Virus record (IMG/VR): IMGVR_UViG_3300045975_000174
Coordinates: 1 to 28,463 of that record
Strand: one strand, 5' to 3'
Length of the DNA: 28,463 nucleotides
From: a virus
Below, piece by piece: positions 5,071 through 28,463 of this stretch. The notes under the pieces are model-generated. The model saw only the letters and a program-made list of their open reading frames with translations. It searched no databases and had not been told where the DNA came from. How positions within the stretch are numbered: position 1 is the first letter of the stretch; the number at the start of each line of letters is the position of its first letter. The position numbers were made by a program, and so were the translations under genes.

Positions 5071-5534
5071 GGTTGTACCTCCACCTTTGCCAGCTGTTGA
5101 CGGATTGACCGCGATAAGGGCGCGCAGCGCCCGACGCGCGCGCCGTCCGCGATCAGCTTGTCCGCGCGACGTTTCGCGCGCGTTGCCCATTCGGGCGTAC
5201 CAATCGCCGGCGCACGGCCGCGGAAGTACAAACGCTCGCGCCGCCACATGGCGCGCAGCTCGGCCAGGATCGGCGGCTTTGGTGCCGGCCCTAACGCCTC
5301 AGCGAAGGCGCGCAGCTCGGGCGACATACGCGCGCGCATGAAAAAGGCATAATCGGCGGCCGGCGCTGTCCGCTTGTAGTGCGCAAACACTTCCGCCGAC
5401 GTCATAGCGGCCAGGTCCGGCGCCTGGCCGGCGCTGTCAGCCGGTACCGCCGGCGCCGGCGTACGCTTGGCTGCCGGCCAGCGCCGGCCGCACGTCGGAC
5501 AGCATGCGGCGCCCTTCCCGTTTCCGTTACTCAT
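5067..5534 (-). CDS. Hypothetical protein, 155 aa, N-terminal CPTC knuckle
   Basis: The ATG at 5534 overlaps the upstream stop as ATGA; the longer frame begins at a TTG without a ribosome site and looks spurious. The N-terminus has CCPTCGRRW, a single knuckle of the kind that needs a partner or dimer to hold zinc. A Pro/Ala-rich linker follows. The rest is basic and helical, with AEVFAHYKRTAPAADYAFFM, ILAELRAMWRRERLYFRG and TRAKRRADKLIADG. This suggests nucleic-acid binding; no enzyme motif is visible. Confidence 0.6.
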   Translation of the reverse strand: MSNGNGKGAACCPTCGRRWPAAKRTPAPAVPADSAGQAPDLAAMTSAEVFAHYKRTAPAADYAFFMRARMSPELRAFAEALGPAPKPPILAELRAMWRRERLYFRGRAPAIGTPEWATRAKRRADKLIADGARVGRCAPLSRSIRQQLAKVEVQP

Positions 5535-20476: not shown

Positions 20477-20503
20477 CCGGTGCTGGTGTAGAGCCAGCAC
20501 CGG
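20477..20503. repeat. 10-bp hairpin after the capsid gene, loop TGTAGAG
   Basis: CCGGTGCTGG pairs perfectly with CCAGCACCGG across a 7-nt loop. A second hairpin 8 bases on shares the TGTAGA loop. No T-run follows. It lies 40 bases after the capsid stop. Confidence 0.5.
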
Positions 20504-20510
20504 TCATTCG

Positions 20511-20527
20511 CCCGGTGTAGAACCGGG
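20511..20527. repeat. Second hairpin, CCCGGT/ACCGGG, loop GTAGA
   Basis: A 6-bp stem whose top and loop repeat the GGTGTAGARCC of the preceding hairpin while the lower stem differs. It ends just ahead of GGAG, the ribosome site of the next gene, so folding could influence its translation. Confidence 0.45.
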
Positions 20528-21193: not shown

Positions 21194-21215
21194 TCCTCGA
21201 CGATAGCTTGCGGAG

Positions 21216-21240
21216 GCGGCGTGGCAATCCTGCCCGCCGC
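21216..21240. repeat. Bulged GC-rich hairpin before the next gene
   Basis: GCGGCG and GGCA pair with TGCC and CGCCGC around an ATCC loop, with one bulged T (21222). It fills most of the 75-base gap. A GGAG ribosome site follows it. Confidence 0.4.
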
Positions 21241-21268
21241 TTCCCTCGCGTCATTTGGAGAATGACTC

Positions 21269-26094: not shown

Positions 26095-27157
26095 TCTCGT
26101 CTCGCAGCTGACCGGTGAACTGCCGGGCCTCTCGCCCCTGCTGGCGCAGAAACATATCAACTGGGCGTGGCGTGACATTCGCCAGATGCGGCTGTGGAGC
26201 TTCCTGTCACTCGACGGCGCCGTCGTCTGCCCGGCGCAGGTGACCGCCGGCGCTGTCTCGATCACGCAGTACACCGATACGGTGACGCTTGACGCGACGG
26301 CCTCAGCCGCGCTGCTCGCGCAAACCGCCGTCGGCGCCGTGCCGGGTATTCAAAACCTGTCGATTCGCTTCGGCGCGACGTCGCCTGTCGCGGGACAGGT
26401 GTACAACATCATCAACTTCGACGCGTCCGTCCCGGCGGCCATCGTCCTGACGCTCAACCGCGTCGTGCTCGAAGCCACCAACGCGACGTCCGGCTACCAG
26501 TGCTACCGCGCGTACATCGTACCGCCGATGGCCGACTTCCTCGGCTGGGAGTCGCTCAACGACATGGCGAACGCCTTCTCGATGACGCATGAGAACGGGC
26601 GGCTGTCGCACACGTCGAAGTACTTCGATCTGCGTGATCCGCAGCGCACGGCGCAGGGACTCGCCTACTTCCTCGGCGCCTACGCCGGTGCGTACCAGAG
26701 TGATCCGATTGCCAACACGGTTATTCCGGTCGCGACGGTCGATCCTGGCGTCAACATCTACGAGCTGTGGCCGCACCCGACGTCGGGGCAGACCTTCTAC
26801 GCGCGCTTCCGTCGGCGTGGGGCGGACTTCGCGCAGCAGAATGAGGCGCAGCCGGACGTCATCCCCGACGCGATGATTCTGGAGCGTGCCAAGGCGACCT
26901 ACTCGTATCCGTTCGCCGCCGCCAACGTCGGCAACTTCCCGACGTTCAAGGGCGTGGCGTGGCAATCGCTCATCGCGGTGTCCAAGGCCAACTTCAAGGA
27001 TGCGCTCCTGCTGGCGAAGAAGAACGACGACGAGGCGGCGCTGCAAACCGTGTATGCTCGGGGGCACGGCTTGCGGACGGGCACCTGGGACTTCAAGGGG
27101 TTGAATGCGTTTCCGATCGACAGTAACTTCATGCAATCGCATCTAGTGAGGTTCTGA
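26081..27157 (+). CDS. Putative head-tail connector/adaptor protein, 358 aa
   Basis: The N-terminus FLDLVSQLTGELPGLSPLLAQKHINWAWRDIRQMRLWSFL is a helical opening like that of adaptor proteins that bind the portal in short- and long-tailed phages. The middle is beta-rich (AVVCPAQVTAGAVSITQYTDTVTL, NLSIRFGATSPVAGQVYNI). The last third is helical again (PDAMILERAKATYSYPFAAANVG, KANFKDALLLAKKNDDEAALQTVY). I recognise the general type but not a named family. GAGAGG upstream supports the start. It is followed by a TGATG overlap. Confidence 0.55.
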   Translation: MAFLDLVSQLTGELPGLSPLLAQKHINWAWRDIRQMRLWSFLSLDGAVVCPAQVTAGAVSITQYTDTVTLDATASAALLAQTAVGAVPGIQNLSIRFGATSPVAGQVYNIINFDASVPAAIVLTLNRVVLEATNATSGYQCYRAYIVPPMADFLGWESLNDMANAFSMTHENGRLSHTSKYFDLRDPQRTAQGLAYFLGAYAGAYQSDPIANTVIPVATVDPGVNIYELWPHPTSGQTFYARFRRRGADFAQQNEAQPDVIPDAMILERAKATYSYPFAAANVGNFPTFKGVAWQSLIAVSKANFKDALLLAKKNDDEAALQTVYARGHGLRTGTWDFKGLNAFPIDSNFMQSHLVRF

Positions 27158-27453
27158 TGGGATTCCTGGGAGCCTTGCATCGGGGAATTACCGGCGCCGT
27201 CAAGGCAGTCGGCAAATCGGCAACCGGAGCCGCCAAATCGATCGCACGTGGCGAGCCGAAAAGTCCTGTCGGCGCGCTGGTGGGAGCACTCCGTGGTCGT
27301 CCGCGGCCGACGGCACGTGGGGGAGCGCCAGGGGCGGCACAGAGCATCCTGCCCGGCGAGCCGAGCATCGATCCGCAAGCGGCGCAACGGCCCCCTGTTC
27401 GTGGCATGATGCGTCGCGGTGCCCGTCGTGGACGGAACACCGGGCGTCGCTAG
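27157..27453 (+). CDS. Small basic protein with Gly/Arg-rich tail, 98 aa
   Basis: Starts in a TGATG overlap with the connector-like gene. A short amphipathic helix (GFLGALHRGITGAVKAVGKSATGAAKSIA) could insert in or lie on a membrane, as antimicrobial or holin-like peptides do, but it is too short to span twice. The rest is Pro/Arg-rich and ends MMRRGARRGRNTGRR. That tail matches other late-block proteins here. Virion component or ejected protein is the likeliest role. Confidence 0.55.
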   Translation: MGFLGALHRGITGAVKAVGKSATGAAKSIARGEPKSPVGALVGALRGRPRPTARGGAPGAAQSILPGEPSIDPQAAQRPPVRGMMRRGARRGRNTGRR

Positions 27454-27467
27454 CAAAGGAGATCAGC

Positions 27468-27743
27468 ATGGCGTCGACAAAAACCGATCGCGGAGGCGGA
27501 CCGGGCACCTACACGTCCAAAGGCGTGCGGTGCACGATGGATCCGCCGTTCAAGGCTGGCTTGGGCAAAGGCAGCCAAACCAACATGGGCGGCATCTTCG
27601 ATCAGCCGCGCTCGGGTGGTGACAACGGCCTGCCGACGCGCGTGACCGATCGCCTGGGCGGACCGAGCAAGGGACCGAAGCCAGGTTACGCGGCCTCGGC
27701 GCCGAGCGCGCAGGGACCGATTCGCAAGGCGACGTCCCGCTAG
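27468..27743 (+). CDS. Small Gly/Pro/Ser-rich protein, 91 aa
   Basis: AAAGGAGAT six bases before the ATG is one of the best ribosome sites in the block. The product is low in hydrophobic residues and probably unfolded: STKTDRGGGPGTYTSKGVRC, then FKAGLGKGSQTNMGGIFDQPRSGG, and a tail GPIRKATSR. One Cys. No family. It lies just before the large hairpin. Confidence 0.55.
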   Translation: MASTKTDRGGGPGTYTSKGVRCTMDPPFKAGLGKGSQTNMGGIFDQPRSGGDNGLPTRVTDRLGGPSKGPKPGYAASAPSAQGPIRKATSR

Positions 27744-27750
27744 ACACCCT

Positions 27751-27842
27751 GCGAGGGTTGAACGTCCCCGCGAATGCGTCGGAGGCTAGGGGGCAACCCC
27801 GGTAAAACCCTCCGATGGCGCAAGGGGACGTTGAACCCTCGC
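27751..27842 (+). ncRNA. 92-nt highly structured RNA element upstream of the last gene
   Basis: GCGAGGGTTGAACGTCCCC (27751-27769) pairs with 27824-27842 over 19 positions with a single G-G mismatch in the centre. Inside it, TGCGTCGGAGG (27775-27785) pairs with CCTCCGA (27809-27815) and CGCA (27819-27822), leaving TGG bulged. At the top GGGG-CAA-CCCC can close a mini-hairpin. Both long arms contain GTTGAAC. It fills the whole gap and ends seven bases before the ATG at 27850, which lacks a ribosome site. Candidates are a translational control element, a processing site or a packaging/recombination site. Confidence 0.6.
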
Positions 27843-27849
27843 CACGTCG

Positions 27850-28463
27850 ATGCCGTACACCCAGCCCACGCTCGCGCAGGCACAGACGGCGCTCTCTATC
27901 CGTCTGCAAGATCCCAACATGGTTCGGTGGGTTGCCGCCGAACTGACAGGGTACCTGCGCGAGGCGCTCCGCTGGTGGAACGCGATGACTGCGCACTTCC
28001 GCGCGCAGGACAGCTTCGCGACGCAAATGCTCGTCCCGTTCTACGATCTGGGTACCGAGCTGCCGGCGCTGCGTGCACGGTCAGTCACCAACTGGGAGAT
28101 GGTCGCTGATCTCCAGTACGCCCTGCTCGAACCAGCCGCGGCCGGCGGCACGTGGACTGGTACCGATCAATTCGATCTCGCGACGCTCAACGGCGCGATC
28201 CAGGGGAAGCGCGACGAGTTCCAGCGCGAGACGGGCGCGACAGCCACGCGGGCCGAAACGGTGTACGCGGCACCGCCGGCGTCTGGCCGGCTGGATCTCG
28301 ACGAAGCCGTGCTGTTGGTGCGCCGCGCCGCGTGGCGGCCGTCAGCGACACAGCTGCTTCAGCCTCTCTTGCGGACCGATGAATGGGCCGCCAATCACTT
28401 CGTCCCGACGTGGGTGACCCCGGCGACACCGTCGACGGCGTACTCCGTCACGGCGGTGCCTCC
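27850..28463 (+). CDS. Partial structural-type protein (N-terminal 204 residues)
   Basis: The frame from ATG 27850 stays open to the window edge. It reads as a folded protein: YTQPTLAQAQTALSIRLQDPNMVRWV, then LTGYLREALRWWNAMTAHFRAQ, FYDLGTELPALRARSVTNWEMVADLQYALLE, DQFDLATLNGAIQGKRDEFQRETGA and DEAVLLVRRAAW. This pattern of helices with a later FYDL-x-x-ELP strand resembles conserved proteins seen near connector genes of other phages. I infer a neck or tail-proximal component. The start codon lacks a ribosome site and follows the 92-nt hairpin. Confidence 0.65.
   Translation, partial: MPYTQPTLAQAQTALSIRLQDPNMVRWVAAELTGYLREALRWWNAMTAHFRAQDSFATQMLVPFYDLGTELPALRARSVTNWEMVADLQYALLEPAAAGGTWTGTDQFDLATLNGAIQGKRDEFQRETGATATRAETVYAAPPASGRLDLDEAVLLVRRAAWRPSATQLLQPLLRTDEWAANHFVPTWVTPATPSTAYSVTAVP

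Follow-up and report, generated by a model that had tools for sequence, protein, structure and literature searches.

A large hairpin in a tightly packed phage gene junction, apparently a lineage-specific insertion and possibly an RNA separator between late cistrons

Phages such as T7 carry RNase III processing hairpins between their late genes. The junction described here resembles these in that, within a late operon, its intergenic stem is long and interrupted and lacks a T-run, but it differs in that its hairpin is not conserved between relatives and in that cleavage is here putative. A second point of comparison is provided by ribosome termination structures (RTS; Chemla et al., 2020; PMC7518266), in which a stable structure is found right after the stop codon and the gene pair is at least 25 nt apart. 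The present locus shares this arrangement, with a hairpin that begins 7 nt past the stop and whose predicted stability of -60.8 kcal/mol is far beyond the RTS threshold of -6 kcal/mol. It departs from RTS in that the hairpin occupies 92 nt, compared with the 40-nt windows by which RTS are defined, in that the following gene, which starts at position 27850, has no Shine-Dalgarno sequence for independent initiation, and in that the element is known from sequence alone. The seg43(25) hairpin of Aeromonas phage 25, which precedes a homing endonuclease gene and leaves a ribosome-binding site between stem and start (PMC2988022), is likewise very stable and lies immediately ahead of a start codon without itself sequestering it, whereas the hairpin examined here is accompanied by no ribosome-binding site and by a gene that likely encodes a virion protein. 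Finally, this hairpin is near-palindromic, intergenic, and apparently inserted without gene disruption, as are REP, ERIC, and MITE sequences, but in the searches described below it proved to be single copy, and no family, target duplication, or transposase was found.

Layout and predicted fold of the junction

The hairpin is contained in a viral fragment of 28,463 nt (28.5 kb; IMG/VR record IMGVR_UViG_3300045975_000174), the whole of which is referred to here as the window, and which includes terminase, portal, and major head protein genes. The features of the junction, all on the plus strand, are as follows.

27468-27743, +: upstream gene, encoding a small protein of 91 aa; good Shine-Dalgarno sequence; homologs in both close relatives
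27741-27743, +: TAG stop codon of the upstream gene
27744-27750, +: left spacer ACACCCT, 7 nt, from stop codon to hairpin
27751-27769, +: 5′ outer arm, 19 nt, GCGAGGGTTGAACGTCCCC
27770-27823, +: inner part, with a 9-bp stem, asymmetric loops, and the GGGG-GCAA-CCCC tip (z -1.83)
27824-27842, +: 3′ outer arm, 19 nt, GGGGACGTTGAACCCTCGC, pairing with the 5′ arm except at one G-G
27843-27849, +: right spacer CACGTCG, 7 nt, without a Shine-Dalgarno sequence
27850-28461, +: downstream gene, ATG at 27850, truncated by the contig end; encodes the N-terminal portion of a protein of about 450 aa

The product of the downstream gene is a distant homolog of gp30 of Tunturiibacter phage Tunturi_1, which is annotated as a structural protein, and it is likely to be a virion protein.

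The positions that an earlier note on this DNA had assigned to the stop codon, the hairpin (27751-27842), and the ATG at 27850 are all exact. Its description of the fold is accurate for the 19-nt outer arms, which are paired at 18 of 19 positions and carry one central G-G mismatch, but needs revision further in: the inner stem comprises 9 bp rather than 11, an asymmetric 3/8 internal loop lies below the tip, and the tip itself is best read as GGGG-GCAA-CCCC, with a GNRA-type tetraloop, rather than as GGGG-CAA-CCCC. The occurrence of GTTGAAC in both arms had been taken to mean that the two halves are also partial direct repeats of one another. Because GTTNAAC is its own reverse complement at every position except the middle one, however, inverted arms with a G-G center will both read GTTGAAC, and the apparent repeat follows from the inverted arms.

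The minimum free energy (MFE) of the hairpin, -60.8 kcal/mol, corresponds to a z score of -7.28 relative to dinucleotide shuffles. The 106-nt gap as a whole yields z scores of about -5.3 to -5.7 and is the most structured among the 11 gaps compared within the window, as delimited by gene calls made in this analysis. Across the window, arm length is a more useful ranking than MFE, since an even better fold is predicted for GC-rich sequence at 5413. None of 2000 shuffled gaps attained the hairpin's arm score of 16, and 2 of 300 shuffles of the whole window attained it anywhere; in the window itself, no other stem does so. The inner 54 nt are mildly better than chance (z -1.8; 10 of 200 shuffles equally good). 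Thus, the fold signal resides in the outer arms, with the inner half near chance, and it is the pairing of the outer arms that has to be explained. Fold-back during assembly is an unlikely origin, because the two halves of the hairpin differ from one another and are not exact inverted copies.

As DNA, too, the arms pair (z -3.3), and GTTGAAC in each arm fits the attC R′ consensus, GTTRRRY. Both observations would suit a DNA-level site, whether a cruciform, a recombination site, or a packaging signal. We nevertheless consider such a site very improbable, as the hairpin is missing in relatives for which replication and packaging are equally necessary, and its DNA fold is weaker against shuffles than its RNA fold. 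For the cruciform or packaging role that had been proposed, the palindrome itself makes up the whole of the case. The layout of an integron attC site, with terminal R boxes (RYYYAAC/GTTRRRY) and an unpaired central spacer, also fails here: the GTTGAAC boxes are internal rather than terminal, the 5′ copy does not conform to RYYYAAC, and the spacer at the center is base-paired. This candidate was rejected.

Folded as RNA, the plus strand is more stable than the minus strand (-60.8 versus -54.2 kcal/mol), a difference that, together with the GNRA-type tip, would be in keeping with a structured regulatory RNA or an unusual terminator specific to this phage and its relatives. We hold this to be improbable: the hairpin matches no Rfam family at either gathering or permissive thresholds, it lacks a T-run, and a single-sequence covariance model matched the window alone in a search of 441 kb of loci (37 sources beyond the window) and 18 related records. 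Intrinsic transcription terminators consist of a short GC-rich stem with a T-run immediately behind it. A terminator of this kind was rejected, since the lack of a T-run that the earlier note had reported holds for both strands of the sequence, and since the hairpin is not among the terminator-like sites found.

The same junction in relatives

The closest syntenic relatives of the window, at roughly 65-77% DNA identity, are IMGVR_UViG_3300025327_001677 (G001; loci L002 and L051) and IMGVR_UViG_3300031965_000020 (G002; loci L006 and L047-L050). Homologs of the upstream gene are located at L002 4995-5246 in G001 and at L006 3041-3316 in G002. In G001, the same two genes are separated by a 13-nt gap that contains neither a hairpin nor a Shine-Dalgarno sequence. 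In G002, a 216-aa gene (L006 3338-3988), whose product appears methyltransferase-like by eye, lies between the two, and the downstream gene begins 12 nt after the stop of this additional gene. Among remote homologs, the downstream gene begins 0 to 4 nt past the preceding stop in L009, L010, and L040 and, by our reading, overlaps it by 9 nt in L008; in most of the homologs other than that of G001 the start is found at -9 to +13 nt from the preceding stop. One distant homolog, L023, has a 90-nt gap with a strong but unrelated hairpin of its own (z -4.0). The 27751-27842 hairpin was present at this junction in none of the homologs compared, and the expectation that homologous phages would carry a paired structure in the gap is not borne out by the two closest, G001 and G002.

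Subtracting the 92 nt of the hairpin from the gap leaves 7 + 7 = 14 nt, the corresponding gaps of G001 and G002 being 13 and 12 nt. This remainder, together with the short gaps of the relatives, makes it simplest to suppose that a short coupled junction received a precise insertion. Thus, the hairpin would most simply represent an insertion specific to this lineage, in a junction that is unstable, and from the sequence comparison the insertion looks recent. We term the junction unstable because of the methyltransferase-like gene present there in G002 and because a neighboring gene of the window, at 27157-27453, is missing from both relatives. The latter gene encodes 98 aa, has a good Shine-Dalgarno sequence, and is absent between the same neighbors in G001 and G002; with the hairpin, it brings to two the window-only inserts within 700 bp. 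By comparison with relatives, the hairpin is a clear case of a large hairpin entering a tightly packed phage gene junction.

These comparisons also bear on the proposal that the hairpin stands in for the ribosome site of a structural gene. The gene at 27850 indeed has no Shine-Dalgarno sequence, as had been noted (+0.4 kcal/mol against the anti-Shine-Dalgarno), but its counterpart in G001 is equally devoid of one (-0.6 kcal/mol) in the absence of any hairpin. The hairpin therefore did not replace a ribosome site, and it does not hold up as a novel type of ribosome start site or initiation device. Of the other roles proposed for it, RNase processing and translational regulation are conceivable.

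An insertion of this type could be a stray palindromic element (MITE-, REP-, or ERIC-like) that entered a tolerant junction, serves no phage function, and has the outer arms as its terminal inverted repeats. The hairpin occurs in the window only, being absent at a precise position from both close relatives; its signal is concentrated in the outer arms, which is the pattern of terminal inverted repeats; and the G002 junction likewise took up a gene. A neutral insertion is accordingly a real possibility, though a doubtful one, and it ranks second, close behind the RNA separator considered below. It is weakened by the failure to find a second copy. None was detected elsewhere in the window, by blastn in phage and plasmid collections, in a strict arm-pattern scan of 2.9 million viral contigs, or in an arm-pattern scan of an 84,980-species genome set; a loose arm-pattern scan of the viral contigs returned three chance matches, all within unrelated sequence, and a pattern scan for the inner part of the hairpin returned none. 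Dispersed related copies of the sort that typify REP, ERIC, and MITE families are thus not apparent in these collections, with the reservation that diverged copies are poorly detectable and would be missed by exact-pattern scans for the arms. One contig is the only known source of the hairpin, and a protein search of genome contigs yielded no relatives. In addition, the flanks ACACCCT and CACGTCG share no clear or convincing target-site duplication, the relatives being too diverged for base-by-base alignment of an empty site, and the window contains no Y1 transposase.

A candidate separator in the late transcript

The reading that we tentatively favor is that the hairpin acts as an RNA separator between late cistrons, either as an insulating, RTS-like barrier or as a substrate for RNase III processing. 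A near-palindromic sequence would, as the comparison with relatives suggests, have been inserted between two co-directed late phage genes and would be transcribed with the late mRNA, folding with its base 7 nt past the stop codon. A structure of this stability, abutting the terminating ribosome, may block scanning or re-initiation into the next gene, and its long double-stranded stem could offer RNase III-type enzymes a site for cleavage or binding, so that each cistron would have a fate of its own. The 27850 gene would then rely on its own weak initiation without a Shine-Dalgarno sequence. In E. coli, stable structure right after the stop has been linked to gaps of at least 25 nt and to reduced re-initiation (PMC7518266), and re-initiation drops steeply with gap length, such that gaps of 38 nt lower it by 80-100% (PMC10666635). 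Together with the stability of the fold, the comparison with relatives, and the unrelated hairpin in the 90-nt gap of L023, these published results and the T-less hairpins behind other stop codons of the window lead us to favor a separator: strong T-less stem-loops are located behind stops at 20477-20503 and 1681-1707, and the gap at 21194-21268 has a z score of -4.2. Against a separator, insulation leaves the 27850 gene without coupling and without a Shine-Dalgarno sequence, which is odd for a virion gene; in addition, no conservation is seen, the hairpin comes from one contig, and the inner half of the fold is close to what chance would give.

Alternatively, the hairpin might bridge a translational coupling. 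As the downstream gene lacks a Shine-Dalgarno sequence in both the window and G001, coupling is likely to be the ancestral mode, and if the 92 nt fold out, the 106-nt distance from stop to start could act as the residual 14-nt spacer, close to the 13 nt of G001 and the 12 nt of G002. Ribosomes would then re-initiate at 27850, and the insertion would have survived by keeping the coupling. We regard this as unlikely, because any precise insertion gives the same spacing, because the E. coli results on post-stop structure (PMC7518266) and on 38-nt gaps (PMC10666635) indicate that re-initiation would be hindered, and because no precedent was found for re-initiation across a 92-nt hairpin. The hairpin could be used for testing whether such structures insulate, process, or preserve the translation of the next gene.

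Other hairpins and repeats

Two hairpins in tandem, each closed by a GUAGA loop, follow the major head protein gene of the window and have counterparts at the same place in G002.

20477-20503, window: first GUAGA hairpin, CCGGTGCTGGT-GTAGA-GCCAGCACCGG
20511-20527, window: second GUAGA hairpin, CCCGGT-GTAGA-ACCGGG
2360-2408 of L048 (G002), minus strand: counterparts, CGAGCACTGGT-GTAGA-GCCAGTGCTCG and GTGCCGT-GTAGA-GCGGCAC

Between the window and G002, both sides have changed with pairing kept in 4 of the 11 pairs of the first hairpin and 3 of the 6 pairs of the second, as counted by eye. The GUAGA loop remains constant while the stems covary. G001 (L051) has one shorter form of the GUAGA hairpin. 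The hairpins were absent from 16 more distant records and had no match in Rfam. Selection has probably acted on the 20477-20527 tandem as an RNA element, which may be a site of protein binding or processing, and the tandem constitutes better-supported evidence of selected RNA structure than does the 27751-27842 hairpin.

The stem-loop at 1681-1707 is a perfect 9-bp hairpin, CCCCCTGTG/CACAGGGGG, that has no T-run and lies 11 nt past the stop of the 722-1669 gene, which is primase/helicase-like. Behind this gene, at 1780-1900 of the window, TGACCCTAA repeats occur in both orientations. The matching place in G002 (L049 805-1000) contains TGAGAATTTG repeats instead, including a 22-bp perfect hairpin at L049 864-937, and the two sets look like repeats of an origin or operator, with a different sequence in each relative. 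A distant relative contains a near-perfect hairpin of 27 bp, with a loop of 20 nt, at L010 672-745.
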